Virus record (IMG/VR): IMGVR_UViG_3300044491_001585
Span: 1 to 21,287 of that record
Strand: one strand, 5' to 3'
DNA length: 21,287 nucleotides
Source: a virus
Part shown: positions 3,875-19,371 of the stretch, piece after piece
Layout of the letters: every line of letters starts with the position of its first letter
Numbering within the stretch: position 1 is the first letter of the stretch
Notes under the pieces: generated by a model
What the model saw: only the letters and a program-made list of their open reading frames with translations
Databases searched by the model: none
What the model was told of the DNA's origin: nothing
Translations under genes and position numbers: made by a program

Positions 3875-6800
3875 ATGCCAACAACCGTACAATTTAGAAG
3901 AGGCACAACAGCACAAAACGATGCATTTACAGGTGCAGCCGGCGAGCTTAGTATTGATACTAATAAGAATTCTATCAGAGTTCACGACAATAGCACAGCA
4001 GGCGGTATAGAAATTGCAAACGTAAGTGCTACACAAACTCTTACAAACAAGACATTAACTGCGCCTAACCTAACAAGTCCAACTATTAGCGGTATTGCTA
4101 TTGCAGAGTATATTAGCGATACGGTTGGAGCAATGGTTAGTAGCAATACTGAATCGGGTATTAGTGTAACCTATCAAGATGCAGATAATACTTTAGACTT
4201 TGATGTTGGTGATTTTACAATAACTCTAGGCGGAGATTTAACAGGATCTGCTACTATTACAAACCTTGGCAGTGCTACACTAACAGCAACCATTATAGAT
4301 GACTCACACAATCATATTATTAGTAATGTTGATGGACTTCAAACAGCATTAGATGCTAAGTTGGCACTAGCAGGCGGTACAATGTCTGGTAATATTGCTA
4401 TGGGCTCTAATAGCATTACTGGATTGGCTGATCCTTCATCAAATCAAGATGCTGCAACAAAGGCATATGTTGACAGCGGTTTAAGTAGTCTAAGTAGTAC
4501 AACTCTTACTGAAGGAAATAGTACACTAGTTGTTGCTGATAGTGGCACTGGAACTATTACAGCAACTATTGACGGTGCAACACATAGTACATTTGCTGCC
4601 GCTGGTATTACACTTGCACAAGGTGAGTTTATTGGAGATGTTACTGGTAATGCTGACACAGCAGATGCATGGAGTACAGCTCGTACACTAAGTTTAACAG
4701 GTGCAGTTACAGGTAGTGCAAGCATTGACGGTAGTGGTAACGTATCACTAGCAACAACAGCCACAAGCGATCCAGTTATTACTCTAACAGGTGCAGTTAC
4801 TGGTTCTGGCACAATGACCAACTTAGGTAACGTAAGTATCGCAACAACAGCAACAGCAGATCCAACATTAACTTTATCTGGTGATGCAAGTGGTTCTGCA
4901 ACATTTACTAACCTAGGTAACGCTACATTAACTGTAACCGTTGCTGATGACAGCCACAATCATATCATTGGTAACGTAGATGGACTTCAAACAGCATTAG
5001 ATGCTAAGTTGGCACTAGCAGGCGGTACAATGTCTGGTAATATTGCAATGGGCACAAATGCTATTACTGGAATGGCAGATCCAAGTAGTGCGCAAGATGC
5101 TGCTACTAAGGCTTATGTTGACAGTGGACTTAGTAGTCTAAGTAGTACCACACTAACTGAAGGCAACACTACCATTGTTGTTGCAGATAGTGGAACTGGA
5201 ACTGTTACAGTTACAGTAGATGGTTCAACACATAGTACATTTGCTGCAGCGGGTATAACCCTTGCACAAGGTGCATTTGTTGGCGATGTGACAGGCGATG
5301 TGACAGGAAACGCAGATACTGCTACTGCACTTGAGACTGCAAGAACAATTGCAGGTAATAGCTTTGATGGTACTGCGAATATAACAATAGCAAGTACACA
5401 ACTAAGTGATACTGCAGATCTTGCACGGTTAGCTGCTCCGGCTTTTACAGGTACAGCAACTGGTGTAAACTTAACACTAAGTGGTGATCTTACTGTAAAT
5501 GGTACAACAACTACACTAGCAACTACAAATACTGTGATTAGTGATAATTTAATTGAACTCAATAATGGTGCAGGCTCAAATGCCAATGATAGTGGTATTG
5601 TTATTGAAAGAGGAAGTACAGGCGATAATGCATTTATGGGGTGGGATGAAAGTGCTGATAAATTTATAGTAGGCACAACCACTGCCACAGGTGCAAGTAC
5701 AGGCAACCTAACAATTAGTAGCGGAACACTAGTGGCAAACACATTTGAAGGTGCTCTAAGTGGAAACGCAACAACTGCCACTGCATTGGCAACTGGTAGA
5801 ACAATTAGTCTTACAGGTGATGTGACTGGAACCAGTGGCTCATTTGATGGAAGTGGCAATGTAAGTATATCAGCAACTATTGCTGCAAACAGTGTTGCAC
5901 TAGGTACAGATACTACAGGAAACTATGTTGGTACAATTACTGGAGGTACTGGTATATCATCAAGTGGTGCAACCACAGGTGAAGGTGTTGCACATACCTT
6001 GTCAATTGACAGTACAGTTGCAACACTAACTGGGTCACAAACACTCACAAACAAAACACTTACTAGTCCAGTTATTAGTACTATTAGTAATACTGGAACA
6101 CTAACACTTCCTACTAGTACTGGCACCGTTGCACTCACCAGTGATATTCCTACAAACAACAACCAATTGACGAATGGTGCTGGTTACACTACAAACACTG
6201 GTGATATAACTGGTGTAACTGCTGGTACTGGTTTAAGTGGTGGAGGATCAAGTGGATCAGTGACACTGAATGTAGATTTATCAGAACTGACTGATATGAC
6301 TGCAGGTATGGTAGGCACTGATGAATTTATAGTACTAGATGCCAGTGCAGATAGACGCAAAGCGGCAAACGAAATTGGATTAAGCATTTTTAGTAATGAT
6401 GCTGGTTTTACTACAAATACTGGGGATATTACAAATGTTAGTGTAAGTGGCAATGGACTATCGGGTGGTGGTGCAAGTGGTAGTGTTACAATTACAAGTA
6501 ATGCTACAAATTCTAACTCAGGATCAACTATTGTATTCCGTGATGGCAGTGGCAACTTCAGTGCTGGCGTTATTACAGCAACAACTACTGCAGCACGATA
6601 CGCTGACTTGGCAGAACGTTATACAGCAGATGCAGATTATGAGCCAGGCACAGTGTTAGTATTTGGCGGTGAAGCAGAAGTTACACAATGCACAAGCAAG
6701 TATGATAAACGTATTGCTGGTATTGTTAGTACAGATCCTGCTTTTCTAATGAACGAAAGTTTAGAAGATGGTGTCAGTGTTGGTCTTGTAGGAAGACTAC

Positions 6801-6982
6801 CATGTAAAGTTGTTGGCGAAGTACGCAAAGGCGACTTAATGGTCTCTAGTGATACAGCAGGACACGCAGAAGCATGGCGTGATGAAAGCAATCCTCCTGC
6901 AGGCAGTGTTATCGGTAAAGCACTGGAAAACAAAACAGGCGCCGGCGCAGACGTAATAGAAGTTGTTGTAGGTAAGATCTAA
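3875..6982 (+). CDS. Giant tail-fibre-like virion protein with C-terminal YADLAERY domain
   Basis: This 1035-residue protein is preceded by a good Shine-Dalgarno sequence. The N-terminus (about residues 1-50; QFRRGTT, GELSIDT, RVHDN, GGIEIA) resembles the start of many phage fibre proteins, where it probably attaches to the virion. The middle is made of fibre repeats: a roughly 135-residue unit present twice (from residues 142 and 358) and two modules shared with the upstream paralogue. From about residue 907 the composition changes to a compact globular domain (YADLAERYTAD, YEPGTVLVFGG, RIAGIVSTDPA, GRLPCKV, GSVIGKALE, EVVVGKI). This end is common in marine phage fibre-like proteins and faintly recalls the Peptidase_G2 or intramolecular-chaperone tips of other fibres; no catalytic residues are assigned. 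Host adhesion is inferred. Confidence 0.8.
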   Translation: MPTTVQFRRGTTAQNDAFTGAAGELSIDTNKNSIRVHDNSTAGGIEIANVSATQTLTNKTLTAPNLTSPTISGIAIAEYISDTVGAMVSSNTESGISVTYQDADNTLDFDVGDFTITLGGDLTGSATITNLGSATLTATIIDDSHNHIISNVDGLQTALDAKLALAGGTMSGNIAMGSNSITGLADPSSNQDAATKAYVDSGLSSLSSTTLTEGNSTLVVADSGTGTITATIDGATHSTFAAAGITLAQGEFIGDVTGNADTADAWSTARTLSLTGAVTGSASIDGSGNVSLATTATSDPVITLTGAVTGSGTMTNLGNVSIATTATADPTLTLSGDASGSATFTNLGNATLTVTVADDSHNHIIGNVDGLQTALDAKLALAGGTMSGNIAMGTNAITGMADPSSAQDAATKAYVDSGLSSLSSTTLTEGNTTIVVADSGTGTVTVTVDGSTHSTFAAAGITLAQGAFVGDVTGDVTGNADTATALETARTIAGNSFDGTANITIASTQLSDTADLARLAAPAFTGTATGVNLTLSGDLTVNGTTTTLATTNTVISDNLIELNNGAGSNANDSGIVIERGSTGDNAFMGWDESADKFIVGTTTATGASTGNLTISSGTLVANTFEGALSGNATTATALATGRTISLTGDVTGTSGSFDGSGNVSISATIAANSVALGTDTTGNYVGTITGGTGISSSGATTGEGVAHTLSIDSTVATLTGSQTLTNKTLTSPVISTISNTGTLTLPTSTGTVALTSDIPTNNNQLTNGAGYTTNTGDITGVTAGTGLSGGGSSGSVTLNVDLSELTDMTAGMVGTDEFIVLDASADRRKAANEIGLSIFSNDAGFTTNTGDITNVSVSGNGLSGGGASGSVTITSNATNSNSGSTIVFRDGSGNFSAGVITATTTAARYADLAERYTADADYEPGTVLVFGGEAEVTQCTSKYDKRIAGIVSTDPAFLMNESLEDGVSVGLVGRLPCKVVGEVRKGDLMVSSDTAGHAEAWRDESNPPAGSVIGKALENKTGAGADVIEVVVGKI
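4298..4690 (+). repeat. Internal fibre repeat, copy A (period 648 nt)
   Basis: This unit encodes about 130 residues from DDSHNHII to ARTL. Copy B begins exactly 648 nt later at 4946. Within the pair, 4331-4398 and 4979-5046 are identical for 68 nt. Confidence 0.9.
4946..5350 (+). repeat. Internal fibre repeat, copy B (period 648 nt)
   Basis: This is the second copy of the unit at 4298-4690, with a few substitutions and a short extra GDVTGDVTG duplication near 5282-5308 (gatgtgacaggc repeated). The long identical DNA core suggests recent duplication or gene conversion. Confidence 0.9.
5486..5716 (+). repeat. 77-residue fibre module, copy in second fibre gene
   Basis: This is the partner of 1443-1673, with the same length and order of motifs (DLTVNGTTTT, ERGSTGDNA, WDESAD, GTTTATG). 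Confidence 0.85.
5996..6196 (+). repeat. 67-residue fibre module, copy in second fibre gene
   Basis: This is the partner of 2676-2876: nearly identical as protein, diverged at synonymous positions as DNA. Confidence 0.9.
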
Positions 6983-7730: not shown

Positions 7731-8177
7731 TTCTTCAACTGTTTTAATTTTATCAACAATCTCATCAATCTGAAATGTAGTAAACACACCAGGATGTAGA
7801 GGTTTGGGCCAAGCGTCTAGTTTACTCCAGGCATAGCCTTTGTGTTCATTGTTTAGTTTAGGGATAAATTCATCTTCTACTACACATACATAGGTACTGT
7901 ATGTAAAGTTATTTTTACTGTTAGTAAACTTTTCCACTGGAATAGTTTTTAGCACAAGCGGCATAAAGCCAATTTCTTCAACAATTTCACGCTGTAGTGC
8001 AGTGTATTCTGTTTCACCTGCTTCTACTTTGCCGCCAACAAACGCCCACATGTTATTATACCTGGCGCCATTGCGCAGTACAAACATATATCTACTTGTT
8101 GATTTGCTTAGAAATAACGCTCCAACACTACTGTTAGATAACGATGCTCCAGTCGCCTGCTCGATATTCGCCTTCAT
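7710..8177 (-). CDS. Nudix hydrolase
   Basis: The 155-residue protein carries a complete Nudix box at residues 49-71. It has the form G-x5-E-x7-REUxEExGU, seen as GGKVEAGE and REIVEEIGF, so the metal-binding glutamates are intact. The first strand (SVGALFLS) and FVLRNG before the box fit the fold. Members hydrolyse nucleoside diphosphates linked to another group; the substrate (oxidised dNTP, ADP-ribose, capped RNA or other) cannot be read from this sequence. The ATG at 8177 lies 44 nt inside the 3' end of gp15 on the same strand, and no later in-frame start keeps the first strand, so the overlap looks real. There is no strong Shine-Dalgarno sequence, which suggests translational coupling to gp15. 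Its 3' end overlaps the convergent gene 6984-7730. Confidence 0.9.
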   Translation of the reverse strand: MKANIEQATGASLSNSSVGALFLSKSTSRYMFVLRNGARYNNMWAFVGGKVEAGETEYTALQREIVEEIGFMPLVLKTIPVEKFTNSKNNFTYSTYVCVVEDEFIPKLNNEHKGYAWSKLDAWPKPLHPGVFTTFQIDEIVDKIKTVEELMCNSA

Positions 8178-9519
8178 AAGACTTGACCCACTCTGTTCCG
8201 GTCCACTTGTATTGTAAGCCTGTGTTAGTATTAGTCATATAGTGTACACCCGAATCACTACTACTGTCAAATGCTACTTGCCATTTAGTGCCATTATATT
8301 CAACGATGTCATTGGCACCTGCTACTAGATCACCCCACGCATCAGGCCCGTCTGTGTTACTTGCATCGCCAATATCATTGAGGATGAGATAACGCTGTCC
8401 TTGTGCTGCAGTTGCAAGTCCTGCACCTGGCGCACTGCGTAGAGGATTAATAATCTTTGTTACAGCAGGTAAGTCATTTGTTGGAACAGTATCACTTTCC
8501 ACAGTCCACAGTAGTTTGTGTGGATCACTAGGATGAAAAGCAACTGTGCCTACTATTTCTGCAGTACCTTGTTCTAACCGTAGTTGACTAATACCACTTT
8601 GTAGTTCACCATACTGGTTAATAAGTGCAGCCCAACTAACATCATCTGTTCCTACTTTTGTTGGCGGATCGTTTAATGGAGTATAATCTACTTTGTTTGT
8701 GCTTGTTTCATTGCGATCCAATATCTGCACAGTGTTACCAAGCACAATAATACCAAAGTTCATCGGTGTAAACTTCTGACGCTCACCTAGTAATATTTGT
8801 CCGTCAATAACGCCTTCTGCAATGCCACCATTATCATCATATATGCTTGCAACAATCTTGTTAATAACACCAAGTTTCTTAACTTTAGCAGGTGCAGTTA
8901 ACCAAATAGGAACAGTAAATGAAAGCGTAGCAATATCAATCTGCTCATCAACACCTGCTGGTACACTTCTGCTCGACCACTGTGTTTGTGCTAGTTCAAT
9001 GTAACTTAAACTTGTCCAATCCAAATAGTTGTCTGTACTTTGTATCTCAAGTGCTGGATTAAACAGTACAAGCAGTTGCTCAAGCAACTGTAGTTTTTGG
9101 TTTGTATTACTAGTCCACACATCTACATTTAACTGCAGTGTATAAGGAACAGGCATAACACGTTCTACTGTAAAAGCATTACCTTGCTGTGTTGTATACT
9201 CATTTGTATTAGGATCAAATTTGCGCATACGGATATGCTTTTTGTCAATAAACGTAGGATCTTGTCTGCGCTCTGCATTGTATTCCAGCCCAGTTATATA
9301 GCAACTAATCATTGGTGTTGGAATAATCTTATTCTCACTGTTCTCACGAACAATGCTGCTTACCATACGAGTAGCATCGCCATACTTAACAGGCACAGTA
9401 ACCAGTGTGGTATTACCATCTCTGTCCTTGCCATACTCTACTTGAAAGTTACTGAATGCACGAATAAACTGCAGTAGGAATCGTCTTATCTGTTGATCGT
9501 AAAAAAATTGCTGTGGCAT
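8134..9519 (-). CDS. gp15: Tail sheath stabiliser and completion protein, T4 gp15-like
   Basis: In T4, gp15 caps the tail and joins it to the neck. The N-terminus (residues 1-30: FFYDQQIRRFLLQFIRAFSNFQV) follows the T4 gp15 pattern, with a paired Arg then FSN-x-Q. Later shared features are VPVKYG, the YNAERR segment, MPVPYTLQLNVDVWTSN followed by LLEQLLVLFNP, and a strand ending in FTVPIWLTAP. At 461 residues it is far longer than T4 gp15 (about 270). The extra C-terminal part contains two copies of a GD...YNGTKW-type hairpin (about 8137-8391), which also occurs in gp14 and the sheath here. The ATG at 9519 overlaps the gp14 stop by one base (TAATG), implying coupled translation. Confidence 0.85.
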   Translation of the reverse strand: MPQQFFYDQQIRRFLLQFIRAFSNFQVEYGKDRDGNTTLVTVPVKYGDATRMVSSIVRENSENKIIPTPMISCYITGLEYNAERRQDPTFIDKKHIRMRKFDPNTNEYTTQQGNAFTVERVMPVPYTLQLNVDVWTSNTNQKLQLLEQLLVLFNPALEIQSTDNYLDWTSLSYIELAQTQWSSRSVPAGVDEQIDIATLSFTVPIWLTAPAKVKKLGVINKIVASIYDDNGGIAEGVIDGQILLGERQKFTPMNFGIIVLGNTVQILDRNETSTNKVDYTPLNDPPTKVGTDDVSWAALINQYGELQSGISQLRLEQGTAEIVGTVAFHPSDPHKLLWTVESDTVPTNDLPAVTKIINPLRSAPGAGLATAAQGQRYLILNDIGDASNTDGPDAWGDLVAGANDIVEYNGTKWQVAFDSSSDSGVHYMTNTNTGLQYKWTGTEWVKSYEGEYRAGDWSIVI

Positions 9520-13115: not shown

Positions 13116-13709
13116 ATGATTATAGGAATTTGCGGATTGATTGGTTCCGGTAAAGGAACTGTCGCTGATATTCTAGTCGACCAAGGATTTAAAAAAGTAA
13201 GTTTTGCTGACAAGCTCAAAGATGGCGTAAGCACTATTTTTGGCTGGGATCGTGCAATGCTGGAAGGAGACACTGATGAGTCAAGAACTTGGCGTGAACA
13301 ACGAGACGACTTTTGGAGTGCTGAAACGAAAATGGAAGTCACTCCTCGTTTGGTGCTTCAGTTATTTGGTACTGATTGCATGCGTAATGGCTTTGATGAC
13401 GGAGTCTGGGTAAGCCTACTTAAAAAGACTATACTGGATAATCCAGGTAACTATGTAGTGCCTGATGTGCGTTTTGAAAATGAAATTGCCATGCTTCGTG
13501 ACATTGGCGGTGAAGTATGGGAAGTACAACGTGGTCGCACTCCAGAGTGGCTTATCAAATATGAAATTACAGGTGTAGAACCTACAGAAATACACCCAAG
13601 TGAATGGCGTTGGATCAAAAGCAGAAAAGATGTAGTGATTGAAAACAACAGCACACTAGCCGACCTTAATCGTCAGGTGTTAAGTCACCTCGGCGCCATC
13701 CCGTTTTAA
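13116..13709 (+). CDS. gp1: Deoxynucleoside monophosphate kinase, T4 gene 1-like
   Basis: The enzyme phosphorylates dNMPs to dNDPs, supplying phage DNA synthesis from recycled host nucleotides. The 197-residue protein starts with a P-loop GLIGSGKGT (residues 7-15). It then has SFADKLKDGV (29-38), a lid-like Arg-rich stretch (about 57-63), DVRFENE (117-123) and a GGEVWEVQR strand (131-139), all features of the dNMP kinase family. EIHPSEW (159-165) also fits. The ribosome site AAGAGGA precedes the ATG. It is co-directional with gp13 and probably shares its late transcript, an unusual place for a nucleotide-metabolism gene. The 3' end overlaps the convergent zinc-protein gene by 44 nt. Confidence 0.9.
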   Translation: MIIGICGLIGSGKGTVADILVDQGFKKVSFADKLKDGVSTIFGWDRAMLEGDTDESRTWREQRDDFWSAETKMEVTPRLVLQLFGTDCMRNGFDDGVWVSLLKKTILDNPGNYVVPDVRFENEIAMLRDIGGEVWEVQRGRTPEWLIKYEITGVEPTEIHPSEWRWIKSRKDVVIENNSTLADLNRQVLSHLGAIPF

Positions 13710-14067: not shown

Positions 14068-14107
14068 GTTATAACGAATTACAACACCTTGATTGAGGAA
14101 GAAAAAC

Positions 14108-17100
14108 ATGGCACTAATATCACCAGGCGTAGAAGTTACAGTTATTGACGAAAGTAACTATGCACCATCAGCAGCAGGCACAGTAGCAGCGATTGTTGTT
14201 GCAACTGCACAAGATAAGACAAGTGGTACTGGCACAGGCACAGCGGCAGGAACAACCGCAGCCAACGCTGGTAAGACATACTTGATCGGAAGCCAGAGAG
14301 AACTAACAAGTACTTTCGGTAATCCAACATTTTACAACACTGCATCAGGCACACCGATTAACGGTTACGAACTTAACGAATATGGCTTGATGGCAGCATA
14401 CAGTTTACTTGGCGTAAGCAACAGAGCATATGTTATCCGTGCAGATGTTGACCTTGCAGAACTAGCAAGCAGCACAAGTCGTCCATTAGGTAATCCAACA
14501 GGCGGTACAGTTTGGTGGGACATGAGCACAGATACACGCTGGGGTATTTTTGAATGGAATCAAAGCACTGGTGCATTTACTAACAAAGCACCTACAGTGA
14601 TCACAAGCACAACTGATCTAACCGGCGGTGTTCCAAAGACTTCAATCGGTGCGATTGGTGATTATGCATTGGTTGCAACAAACACCAGCAATCCTGTTTA
14701 CTACAAGAACCGCAGCAATGCTTGGGTACTAGTAGGCGGTAGTGCATGGCAGATTGCGCATCCAACGATTGCTGGTACAATTGCAAGCCCAACACTAACA
14801 AACGGCAACAGCATTAGCATTAACGGTTCATCAGTTACATTAACTGGCACGACAGTAACACAACTTGCAAGTGATATTAACACTGCAGCAATTACAGGTG
14901 TTACTGCAGCAGCGATTAACAATAAACTTGAACTTTATGCAACAAGCAGTGCAGCAAGTGAGCAGATCATTCTTGCTAACGGTTCTGGTACAATTCTTAC
15001 AGATGCAGGCTTAACGGCAGGCACATATGCAAGACCAAAGATTGCACAAGATCCACATTACACTGTTCCAGCATGGAAGTCAACAGACACAACACCTCGC
15101 CCAACAGGCAGTGTGTGGGTTAAGACCACAAGCAGCAACAGTGGATTCCTAGCAGACGTTAGTACATATGATAGTGCTACAGCAGCATTTGTTGGTGGCA
15201 GTGCTCCAGCATATGAAAATGATCAGACTGCACTAAAGAATCTAGACGTAACAGGCGGTAAGGCTATTACAGCAGGCAGTTTTTATGTACAGTATGATGT
15301 AAGTGAAAATGACACAGTAACTTACAAGTTATTCAAGCGTTATAGTGCAGGTGCATTGAGTGTAACTGGTACAATTAATGCGGCGGCACCTATCACTGCA
15401 GCAGACACATTTACAATCAGTGCAAGTGCAGCAAATAGCACAGCATTGTCAAGTGCAGTAACAGTTACAACAAGTGGCACAGGTATTGCAGACATTGCAA
15501 GTGACATTAACGGTGCAGGCGTTGCAAACGTTAGTGCAAGTGTTAATTCAGGCGGTTACTTGGTAATTACACATGCACTAGGCGGCGTAATTGTAATGAA
15601 AGACACAAGTGGTACTCCATTAGCAGATGCAGGTATTAGTACAGCAATTACTACTAAGCAGGTTCGTGCAGGTAATAACAGCGACCTTATTGTAAGTAAC
15701 TGGATTGCAGATACATACACTGCAGCAACTAGTTCACCTAGTGCAAATCCAGCAGATAACACATACTGGTATGCAGGCGGCTTTGAAGCAGACATTATGA
15801 TCCACAATGGCACAACTTGGAAAGGTTATCAAAACGACACAAACGATGCTCGTGGATTTGATCTTTCACAAACAGATGCAACAGGTGTTATCTTTAGCAC
15901 AACTGAGCCAACTACACAAGTTGATAGTACTGCACTAGTTAACGGTGATTTGTGGATTGACACAAGTGACTTGGAAAACTATCCAGCACTATACAGACGT
16001 CAGACAGTAAGCGGTGAAGCACGTTGGGTTGCTATTGATAAAACAGACACAACAACTGAAAATGGTATTATTTTTGGTGATGCACGTTTTATTGGTGACA
16101 CAACAACAGACGTTGTTACTGGCACAATTCCAACAACTGCAAGTCTACTAACAAGTGACACAGTTGATATTGACCGTCCGGATCCAACAATTTACCCACG
16201 TGGTATGCTACTGTTCAACACACGCCGTAGTACATATGGTGTAAAGCAGTTTAAGAGTAATTACTTCTCACGCACTAACTTTAGTGACACAAGTACATAT
16301 CCAACACTTCCTACAGAAAAGGATGCATGGGTAACAGTAAGTGGATCAAAGTTTGGTCGTAAAGCAGTACGCAGAATTGTTACTAATGCAATGAAATCTG
16401 CACTTGATGCAAGCACAGAGCTTCGCGAAGATGCAAGAATCTTTAACACTATTGCAGCACCAGGATATCCAGAGCTAATCAGCAACATGGTAAGCCTAAA
16501 CAACGATAGACGCCAGACAGCGTTTATAGTAGGTGACAGTCCAATGAGACTAGCAGCAACAAGCACTGCTATTGAGAACTGGGCAACAAACACAGCAGCA
16601 GCAACAGACAACAGTGAAGATGGACTAGTAACTAGCGATCCTTACTTGAGTGTGTTCTATCCAAGCGCAACAACAAATGACCTAAGTGGAAACACAATTG
16701 TTGTTCCAGCAAGTCATATGATGCTACGCACAATTGCTAGAAGTGACGATATTAGTTTCCCATGGTTTGCACCAGCAGGTACAAGACGTGGACTAGTAGA
16801 TAACGTTGCAAGCATTGGTTATGTTAATGCAGTAACAGGCGCATTTGTTAATGACAACATTCGTGAGAGTGTAAGAGATACACTGTACACAAACAGAGTT
16901 AATCCAATTGCATTCTTTAACGGCAGCGGCATTCTGAACTATGGTAACAAGACTCGTGCAGCAAGCAGTAGTGCGCTAGATCGCGTTAACGTTGCTAGAC
17001 TGGTTGGTTACCTAAGACGTCAACTACAAACAATTGCGACAGGCTATGTGTTTGAACCAAACGATAAGATCACTAGAGATGAGCTAAAACAGCAAATCGA

Positions 17101-17320
17101 ACAGACACTTAACGACTTGGTTGCAAAGCGTGGTGTATATGATTACTTGGTAGTTTGTGATGATACAAACAACACCCCAGGTAGAATTGATCGTAACGAA
17201 CTATACGTTGATGTTGCTATTGAACCTACAAAGGCTGCGGAATTCATCTTTATTCCAATCAGACTTAAGAACACAGGTGAGATTGCAAGCGGAAACATAG
17301 CTGCAGCAAGCACAGTTTAA
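14108..17320 (+). CDS. gp18: Tail sheath protein, T4 gp18-like, greatly enlarged
   Basis: The contractile sheath surrounds the tail tube and drives injection. I place the start at ATG 14108 (MALISPGVEV), six bases after GAGGAAG; the in-frame TTG at 14093 is part of that ribosome site. The N-terminus (residues 1-115) and the C-terminal part from about 685 are classic sheath: YPRGMLLFNTRRS, FPWFAPAGTRRG, VNPIAFF, GYVFEPND, YLVVCDDTNNTP and KAAEFIFIPIRL. The protein is 1070 residues against 659 in T4 gp18. The extra length lies in the middle, with two flagellin-IN-like segments (223-305 and 418-511) and four Gly/Trp hairpins (about 130-159, 332-367, 549-576, 610-643). These probably face outward on the virion. 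It is transcribed alone, from a strong late promoter to an intrinsic terminator. Confidence 0.95.
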   Translation: MALISPGVEVTVIDESNYAPSAAGTVAAIVVATAQDKTSGTGTGTAAGTTAANAGKTYLIGSQRELTSTFGNPTFYNTASGTPINGYELNEYGLMAAYSLLGVSNRAYVIRADVDLAELASSTSRPLGNPTGGTVWWDMSTDTRWGIFEWNQSTGAFTNKAPTVITSTTDLTGGVPKTSIGAIGDYALVATNTSNPVYYKNRSNAWVLVGGSAWQIAHPTIAGTIASPTLTNGNSISINGSSVTLTGTTVTQLASDINTAAITGVTAAAINNKLELYATSSAASEQIILANGSGTILTDAGLTAGTYARPKIAQDPHYTVPAWKSTDTTPRPTGSVWVKTTSSNSGFLADVSTYDSATAAFVGGSAPAYENDQTALKNLDVTGGKAITAGSFYVQYDVSENDTVTYKLFKRYSAGALSVTGTINAAAPITAADTFTISASAANSTALSSAVTVTTSGTGIADIASDINGAGVANVSASVNSGGYLVITHALGGVIVMKDTSGTPLADAGISTAITTKQVRAGNNSDLIVSNWIADTYTAATSSPSANPADNTYWYAGGFEADIMIHNGTTWKGYQNDTNDARGFDLSQTDATGVIFSTTEPTTQVDSTALVNGDLWIDTSDLENYPALYRRQTVSGEARWVAIDKTDTTTENGIIFGDARFIGDTTTDVVTGTIPTTASLLTSDTVDIDRPDPTIYPRGMLLFNTRRSTYGVKQFKSNYFSRTNFSDTSTYPTLPTEKDAWVTVSGSKFGRKAVRRIVTNAMKSALDASTELREDARIFNTIAAPGYPELISNMVSLNNDRRQTAFIVGDSPMRLAATSTAIENWATNTAAATDNSEDGLVTSDPYLSVFYPSATTNDLSGNTIVVPASHMMLRTIARSDDISFPWFAPAGTRRGLVDNVASIGYVNAVTGAFVNDNIRESVRDTLYTNRVNPIAFFNGSGILNYGNKTRAASSSALDRVNVARLVGYLRRQLQTIATGYVFEPNDKITRDELKQQIEQTLNDLVAKRGVYDYLVVCDDTNNTPGRIDRNELYVDVAIEPTKAAEFIFIPIRLKNTGEIASGNIAAASTV

Positions 17321-17415: not shown

Positions 17416-18033
17416 ATGTCAGTTTCATCATTAACAAAGTTTACAGTGCCGCTAGACGGTGATCAGAGTGCAGCAAGTCAAGGCTTGCTTATGCCAAAAC
17501 TTAAATACCGCTTTCGTGCATCATTTGAGAACTTTGGTGTTAGTAGTCCTCGTACAGAAATGACCAAACAGGTTATGGATATTACACGCCCTAGTGTAAC
17601 ATTCGAAGAGTTTGAAGTTCCTGTTTACAACAGTAGAGTGTACTTGATTGGCAAGCATGCATGGGATTTGGTTACAATTAACCTACGTGACGATGTGAAT
17701 GGCGCAGTTACTAAATTGTGTGGAGAGCAAGTACAAAAGCAGTTTGATATGATGGAGCAGAGCAGTGCAAGTTCAGGCATTGACTACAAGTTCATTACAC
17801 GCTTTGAAATTCTAGATGGCGGCAACGGTGCAAACGCACCAAGTGTGCTTGAAACTTGGGAACTATACGGCTGCTTTATTCAGAACATCAACTATGGTGA
17901 TCTTAACTATGCAAGTCAGGAACCTGCAACAGTTGCAATGAGTATTAGATTTGACAATGCTGTACAATCACCACTAGGTGACGGCGTTGGTGCAGCGGTA
18001 ACGAGAACACTAGGTCAAACTATTACTGGCTAA
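17416..18033 (+). CDS. gp19: Tail tube protein, T4 gp19-like
   Basis: gp19 polymerises into the inner tube through which DNA passes. The 205-residue protein directly follows the sheath gene, the universal order in contractile phages. It has the tube-type core: LKYRFRASFENF, a segment with PSVTFEEFEVPVYNSRVYL, HAWDLVTINLRDD, then DYKFITRFEILDG, WELYGCFIQNINYGDLNYAS and a final strand TVAMSIRFDNA. T4 gp19 is 163 residues; the additional length lies mainly at the two ends. It has its own late promoter and is separated by 15 bases from a second tube-like gene, with which it is probably co-transcribed. Confidence 0.9.
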   Translation: MSVSSLTKFTVPLDGDQSAASQGLLMPKLKYRFRASFENFGVSSPRTEMTKQVMDITRPSVTFEEFEVPVYNSRVYLIGKHAWDLVTINLRDDVNGAVTKLCGEQVQKQFDMMEQSSASSGIDYKFITRFEILDGGNGANAPSVLETWELYGCFIQNINYGDLNYASQEPATVAMSIRFDNAVQSPLGDGVGAAVTRTLGQTITG

Positions 18034-18048
18034 TAGGAGTTATTCCAA

Positions 18049-19371
18049 ATGGCTAGTGTAAACCCACTACTATCACCATTGGCACAAGGCGAAACAGTGC
18101 GCGACTATAAACATGCGTCGCGCACTTTTGTTGACAACAACTACGAGTTACAGCCTAGACATGGGCATCTCTTTCATGTAGTATTTGAATTTACTGCAGA
18201 AGCACAGAGTCTGTTTAACACAGTTGAAAAACTTGAGATGCCTATACTTGTTAAGAGTATAGATTTACCTACATATACTATTGATGTGCAAACACACAAT
18301 CAGTATAATAGACAAGTTCAAACACATCACAAGATTAGTTACAACCCTGTCACAGCAACATTTCACGATGATGTTAAGGAACTTATTCGTAACTTATGGC
18401 ACAAGTATTATGCATTTTACAGTGCAGATCCAACTTATAGTTTAGACAGTAACAGTTATAATACACAGGACAGATACGCAAATAGAACACAGCAACAGTG
18501 GGGCATGCAGCGCGGCAACAAGCGTTTTTTTAAGAACATTAAAATTTACAGTATGCACAATCATAAGTTTGCAGAGTATACGTTAATCAATCCTATTATT
18601 ACAAGTTTTAATCATGACAGTCATGCGTATGCAAATAGTGGACTAATGCAGCACAGTATGCAAGTACAATATGAAACTGTAAAATATGCAAGCGGCTATG
18701 TAAACGACACAGGCCCAACAGGCTTTGGTGAACTGCATTACGATGTTGAAACAAGTGATTTGAGTAACGGAAATCAATTTGGACAAGCATTTATTGATGG
18801 ACAACTTGTTAATACCAATGGACAACAGCCTACAGATTTATACAGTAGTAATTTAGGTACTATTGGCAGCCAAGGTATATTGTTTGACAACTTGTCTAAC
18901 TTATCATTTGGCAGTGTGCTTAATACAGCACTGGGAAAAGTTGCAAATAACTTGCTAACTGGACAAAAACCTACAAGTAACATACTAGTGCCATTTATTG
19001 GCAAAGCAGAACAACTAGGCAGTAACATACAACAAGGATTACTAAACAACGTTGTTAATGGTGTGTCTAATTATGGAACAAACGACAGTATTAGTAGTCA
19101 AGGACAAAGCATTGGTACTCCATTGTTTACAAATACAGTTACTAGTTCACAGCAAACAAATGTAGGTTATGCTAATACTATTCCAAATACAACAGGAACA
19201 GTTGGTGCTCCTAATAGAATAAGTGATGTAACAACCTATCAAAGACAAAGCCAAAGCACAAACACAAGAGATGCAGCATTGGATATTGCAAGACAGCGAT
19301 TGCAGGATCCTAACATTAGTACAGCTCAGAGACAATACTACGAAGAAAAAATAAGGCTAAGTAATTTATAA
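18049..19371 (+). CDS. Second tail-tube-like virion protein with low-complexity C-terminal half
   Basis: The 440-residue protein has two parts. Residues 1 to about 235 resemble a tail-tube-fold protein: HGHLFHVVFEF, LEMPILVKSIDLPTYTIDVQ, NQYNRQVQ, then SYNPVTATFHDD followed by LIRNLWHKYYAFY, and a late YTLINPIITSF strand. The sequence LP...YN...PV...F-DD is typical of tube and tube-initiator proteins such as T4 gp19 and gp54. Residues about 236-440 are rich in Asn, Gln, Ser, Thr and Gly and look extended, ending in a charged helix (ARQRLQD, RQYYEEKIRL). It is found right after gp19, with a TAGGAG ribosome site. A role as tube initiator, tube terminator or minor tube protein is inferred; the family name is uncertain. 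Confidence 0.65.
   Translation: MASVNPLLSPLAQGETVRDYKHASRTFVDNNYELQPRHGHLFHVVFEFTAEAQSLFNTVEKLEMPILVKSIDLPTYTIDVQTHNQYNRQVQTHHKISYNPVTATFHDDVKELIRNLWHKYYAFYSADPTYSLDSNSYNTQDRYANRTQQQWGMQRGNKRFFKNIKIYSMHNHKFAEYTLINPIITSFNHDSHAYANSGLMQHSMQVQYETVKYASGYVNDTGPTGFGELHYDVETSDLSNGNQFGQAFIDGQLVNTNGQQPTDLYSSNLGTIGSQGILFDNLSNLSFGSVLNTALGKVANNLLTGQKPTSNILVPFIGKAEQLGSNIQQGLLNNVVNGVSNYGTNDSISSQGQSIGTPLFTNTVTSSQQTNVGYANTIPNTTGTVGAPNRISDVTTYQRQSQSTNTRDAALDIARQRLQDPNISTAQRQYYEEKIRLSNL

Follow-up and report, generated by a model that had tools for sequence, protein, structure and literature searches.

The tail sheath protein of this large marine phage contains two mutually homologous copies of a small accessory domain that is probably related to the IN motif of flagellins and FliD caps. 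The window, i.e. the whole stretch of DNA that was analysed (21,287 nucleotides), is a virus record and carries a T4-like tail module, in which the genes encode a sheath stabiliser, a head-tail adaptor, a nucleotide kinase, the sheath and the tail tube. Its features considered here are:

3875-6982, tail-fibre-like protein of 1035 amino acids, beginning with a major tropism determinant N-terminal domain (Mtd_N, 4.9e-9)
8134-9519, minus strand (opposite to the sheath gene), T4 gp15-like tail sheath stabiliser (PF16724, 3.2e-26)
13116-13709, deoxynucleoside monophosphate kinase gene, between the head-tail adaptor and the sheath gene
14108..17320, plus strand, tail sheath protein of the jumbo T4-like type (phrog_10581), 1070 amino acids, with its ATG at 14108 in the open reading frame 14093..17320
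14759..15043, plus strand, insert 1 (residues 218-312), probable flagellin-IN-like domain at site 1
15044..15346, plus strand, inter-insert region (residues 313-413), part of the enlarged middle region of jumbo sheaths
15347..15649, plus strand, insert 2 (residues 414-514), probable flagellin-IN-like domain at site 2
16967..17263, plus strand, conserved C-terminal domain of the sheath (residues 954-1052, PF17482)
17416..18033, plus strand, tail tube protein following the sheath gene, 205 amino acids (phrog_4542, 1.3e-50)
18049-19371, second tail-tube-like gene, 440 amino acids, of which residues 34-219 likewise match phrog_4542 (1.1e-10), followed by a long C-terminal extension

The two tail-tube-like genes (17416-18033 and 18049-19371) stand in tandem. 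A kinase gene of the type found here likewise directly precedes the sheath gene in phage GAP32.

The sheath protein and its two inserts

In this jumbo T4-like phage, the protein serves as the subunit of the tail sheath. Its membership among the contractile tail sheaths is evident from a match to the PHROG tail sheath family phrog_10581 over its full length (8e-208, residues 1-1057), from the Pfam C-terminal sheath domain PF17482 (1.1e-13), which is present in 34 of 34 sheaths scanned, and from a Foldseek search with the full-length model, in which the sheaths of T4 and KP1 rank at the top. The latter search was dominated by the core and carries no information about the inserts. The C-terminal part is also similar to the T4 gp18 chain (2.2e-27). 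T4 gp18 shares this conserved C-terminal core but comprises 659 amino acids in its PDB chains, so that the window sheath exceeds it by about 411 residues, close to the excess of roughly 400 that the sequence-only reading had given for the 1070-residue protein. Only about 195 of these 411 residues belong to the two inserts; the remainder is an enlarged middle region that is common to jumbo relatives. Residues 313-413, which separate the inserts, have an occupancy of 68-100% in the relatives, including those without inserts.

The same reading had singled out residues 223-305 and 418-511, corresponding exactly to positions 14774-15640, as two segments that resemble each other. This resemblance holds, with domain edges somewhat wider than first stated (approximately 218-312 and 414-514). 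The inserts are 31% identical over 88 columns (BLAST), and their local alignment score of 94 was not reached by any of 2000 shuffles (mean 46, maximum 81). The family profiles of the two inserts align with E values around 1e-13 to 1e-14 (8.9e-15 and 1.5e-13 in two profile-profile comparisons). The motifs named at the outset are likewise present: ASDIN with a subsequent V-x-A occurs in each segment, and the final motif is TDAGLT in insert 1 and ADAGIS in insert 2. In each of them the IN dipeptide follows a helix (residues 250-259 and 460-470) and is in turn followed by GV-x-A or V-x-A and a strand (SDINTAAITGVTAA and SDINGAGVANVSAS).

An AlphaFold2 model of the whole sheath, based on 47 sequences, has a pLDDT above 90 across both segments and predicts an identical order of elements, b-b-a-b-b-b-a, in the two inserts. 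In insert 1 these are the strands 235-238 and 241-244, the helix 250-259, the strands 265-270, 273-278 and 286-293, and the helix 296-299; in insert 2 they are the strands 434-440 and 451-454, the helix 460-470, the strands 475-479, 485-489 and 495-501, and the helix 504-507.

Probable relation of the inserts to the flagellin IN motif

The proposed comparison with the flagellin IN motif is largely supported, but not by way of Pfam itself in the window protein. The Pfam family Flagellin_IN (PF07196) has no match in the window sheath at E values up to 10, nor in a scan at E 1, and the isolated segments, when scanned with Pfam and PHROG, yielded only weak unrelated matches, e.g. Rax2. On the other hand, PF07196 exceeds its curated cut-off in sheath genes of relatives, namely those of Agrobacterium phage Atu_ph07, of Sinorhizobium phage Phosso and of a 518-kb contig, and in the sheath of a 328-kb relative it reaches 19.8 bits, below the cut-off of 22.7.

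Both inserts are found with an independent HMM of 30 genuine IN motifs, which were obtained by a PF07196 search of 80 bacterial genomes. The insert 1 fragment scores 13.9 bits with the short version of this HMM and 18.0 bits with an extended version, the insert 2 fragment 20.1 and 19.1 bits, respectively, and none of 2000 shuffles of either fragment was as good (the maximum with the IN HMM, in 2000 shuffles each, being 9.4 bits for segment 1 and 12.3 bits for segment 2). Reversed sequences and the remainder of the sheath protein gave no score with the IN HMM, and in all six frames of the window it matched nothing beyond the two segments and no other open reading frame. Alignment to IN profiles with hhalign resulted in E values ranging overall from 1e-5 to 1e-7: 3.9e-7 (P 92.8) for insert 1, for which another alignment pair gave 2.3e-5 (P 75.8), and 9.2e-8 (P 94.4) for insert 2. 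When each insert was compared directly with 50,697 phage records by tblastn, there was no match up to E 10, and relatives are therefore reachable by profile methods only. None of the matches of the insert profiles to PDB sequences was significant, with Vibrio Flagellin B ranking second for insert 1 (E 0.14). Judged by their sequence profiles, the inserts match IN motifs.

The predicted fold of insert 2 agrees with that of proteins bearing the IN motif. Structure prediction had been named as the check that might reveal unrelated folds, and for insert 2 it points to flagellar proteins instead. We compared the isolated model of insert 2 (confidence 73.8 overall, 83-89 within the domain) with 350,542 PDB chains, and among the best 50 matches ranks 1 to 25 are without exception flagellins and FliD caps, as would be expected for the outer-domain fold of FliD D3 and flagellin D2. 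Vibrio cholerae FlaD and FlaB lead with an E value of 0.011 and a probability of 1.00, and E. coli FliD (5H5V) is found near them. The individual scores are modest (E about 0.01, TM about 0.5), and it is their unanimity that is persuasive. For the most part, the genuine IN profile picks these very proteins from the PDB by sequence. In a library of viral structures, the best match is another large tail sheath (TM 0.72). Neither in the sequence searches nor among the 50 listed fold matches did the inserts find the T4 gp18 chain.

Alternatively, the segments could be a generic beta domain, Ig-like or other, whose flagellar likeness would merely mirror a composition rich in Thr, Ser, Ala and Gly. 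Indeed, T, S, N, G and A together make up more than 60% of each insert, the bias terms reported by HMMER for the IN HMM matches are large, and a survey of modelled sheaths describes the extra domains mostly as Ig-like (PMC9230969). Composition bias as the cause of the IN match was nevertheless rejected, since shuffles that preserve composition do not score, and neither do reversed sequences. Furthermore, the first Ig domain in the fold search ranks 26th, behind the 25 flagellar proteins, and the probabilities of the Ig domains are at most 0.21, and PF07196 exceeds its cut-off in the sheaths of relatives. A generic or Ig-like beta domain is thereby largely refuted, and we consider it very improbable.

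The independent lines of evidence for a relation to the IN motif are in strong agreement. The likeness to the PF07196 domains of FliD and flagellin extends from the profile match to the strand-helix-strand layout, the fold neighbours and the position between self-assembling terminal regions. In contrast to these domains, the window protein remains below the Pfam reporting level, and the carrier is a phage sheath; moreover, both window inserts share a C-terminal strand of the DAG type, of which none was seen in the set of genuine IN motifs.

Insertion sites in related sheaths

The close relatives of the window sheath are virus contigs from metagenomes. More distant relatives, with about 55-61% identity, include contigs of 316 and 328 kb, and homologues in named phages are found in PA5oct, Atu_ph07, Phosso, GAP32, SCTP-2 and a Vibrio jumbo phage. 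Both domains are present in 144 of the 176 full-length sheaths that were collected, a sample that leans to close relatives.

An alternative explanation is that every jumbo sheath ordinarily includes these segments, with no insertion in the lineage of the window. This explanation draws on site 2, which holds about 80-130 residues in PA5oct, GAP32, SCTP-2 and Vibrio phage 2.275.O, so that the domain at this site may be old in the clade. In PA5oct, RaK2-like, SCTP-2 and Vibrio jumbo phages, the segments at site 2 are divergent and have no clear match to the IN profile, and those of PA5oct, GAP32, SCTP-2 and the Vibrio phage are too diverged for an assignment. Against this explanation, site 1 has shrunk to about 7-20 residues in the very same four phages (PA5oct, GAP32, SCTP-2 and Vibrio phage 2.275.O), with well aligned flanks, and equally so in many contigs, e.g. 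L183, L191, L189 and L224. Site 2 is likewise shrunk between aligned flanks in Atu_ph07, Phosso and the contigs L169, L183, L191, L189 and L224. In addition, Atu_ph07, Phosso and L169 possess another domain at a third site, near window residue 174; it comprises almost 100 residues and aligns with insert 1 at E 2.2e-10 and with the genuine IN profile at E 9.7e-10. Atu_ph07 probably has a copy at site 1 as well, and the sheath of the 518-kb contig contains at least three copies of the domain. The sheath alignment across relatives, which had been suggested as a check, thus reveals segments that are not core in all relatives, with sites 1 and 2 each empty in some. An ordinary sheath part is accordingly an improbable explanation. 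The inserts are true insertions, and the domain has been gained and lost at three sites among the relatives.

Two observations concern the 518-kb contig (G004) itself. A protein of 385 amino acids (L253, 293830-294225) contains two IN-like motifs, with 24.5 and 14.8 bits, and more than one protein of the same megaphage therefore uses the domain. Directly after the sheath gene of this contig lies an open reading frame of about 450 amino acids (L236), whose cysteine pattern, by reading, recalls radical-SAM/SPASM proteins.

Precedents and possible role of the inserts

The principle of a FliD-like domain in a phage sheath has already been published. In a cryo-EM study of Vibrio phage XM1, the insertion domain (InD) of the sheath protein gp6 was found to resemble FliD D3 by a DALI comparison with 5H5V, and an exchange with the host was proposed (PMC10457771). 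Like the window sheath, XM1 gp6 is a phage sheath with an inserted FliD-D3-like domain, and 5H5V is also among the fold matches of insert 2. However, the XM1 sheath has 495 amino acids and a single insert that was recognised by its structure, whereas the window features two copies in a T4-like jumbo sheath of 1070 amino acids, with homology at the level of sequence profiles. The XM1 sheath is absent among the 50 listed fold matches of insert 2.

A second precedent is provided by the type 3 multi-domain sheaths of jumbo phages (Atu_ph07 and others), which, according to the survey, carry extra domains between the conserved halves of the core; the added domains of the modelled sheaths lie away from the tube (PMC9230969). 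The window sheath is similarly large, with its extra domains between conserved core halves, and the Atu_ph07 sheath, which itself has PF07196, is directly homologous to it (45% identity over 63% of the query). The two descriptions differ in the nature of the extra domains, which the survey mostly calls Ig-like, and in the passage found there on flagellin the parallel is drawn only for the core architecture, in which the ends of flagellin form the core (PMC9230969). In the open-licence literature we found no report of an IN motif in a tail sheath, and three features were not found published there and are apparently new: the homology to IN at the sequence level, the occurrence of the domain in duplicate in a single sheath, and its use of three sites among jumbo phages.

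We propose that the conserved sheath core has received, in the variable middle region that separates its N-terminal from its C-terminal half, two copies of a single accessory domain, which is a homologue of the outer domain with the IN motif in flagellin and FliD. The ends of the core would build the tube-like assembly, as in flagellin, and the inserts would lie on the outer face of the assembled sheath, where assembly and contraction would stay undisturbed. This placement is suggested because of the published sheath models (PMC9230969) and the position of the inserts between the core halves. Their most likely job would be structural, either as a repeated outer layer with side contacts between neighbouring subunits or as a shield of the long tail, and contact with the host surface would be secondary.

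The inserts diverge faster than the core (51-57% versus 71% identity), and their dN is 1.3 to 2.4 times that of the core, at a dN/dS of about 0.2 with dS near saturation. These rates are consistent with a folded, constrained and exposed domain, not with strong diversifying selection. Both inserts contain about 2% aromatic and 1-3% basic residues, i.e. almost no lysine or arginine, which speaks mildly against a sugar-binding role. Taken together, the low aromatic and basic content and the rates, which show no strong diversifying selection, lead us to prefer structure or shielding as the role of the inserts, and adhesion is the chief alternative; a structural rather than adhesive use strikes us as evenly balanced between right and wrong. 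As adhesive modules, the inserts would present many outward copies along the tail that bind the host envelope, flagella, polysaccharide or other virions and so make productive contact more likely. Their faster divergence and changing copy number fit such a use, and the survey suggests that extra sheath domains may aid adhesion (PMC9230969). Some jumbo phages, moreover, have hair-like appendages on the tail, as known from phage CBB (PMC5259590), whose sheath is homologous to the window sheath; a link between these appendages and sheath inserts is possible but unsupported. On the other hand, the residue content is unusual for sugar-binding sites, and the dN/dS ratio, given dS near saturation, bears no sign of an arms race, which leaves adhesion doubtful in our view.

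A more far-reaching scenario, which we regard as a long shot, is that jumbo phages have repeatedly placed flagellin-type outer domains at the three sites, so that a flagellum-like tail surface would meet host flagella or flagellum-recognising factors, or would carry tail whiskers; phage sheaths and bacterial filaments would then share this domain as a building block that can be exchanged.

Our data tie the extra domains of jumbo phage sheaths, until now mostly described as Ig-like, to a named bacterial family by sequence and fold, and show that this domain duplicates and changes its position. Since phages with and without each copy exist, including the culturable Atu_ph07 and PA5oct, the function of these extra domains is directly testable.
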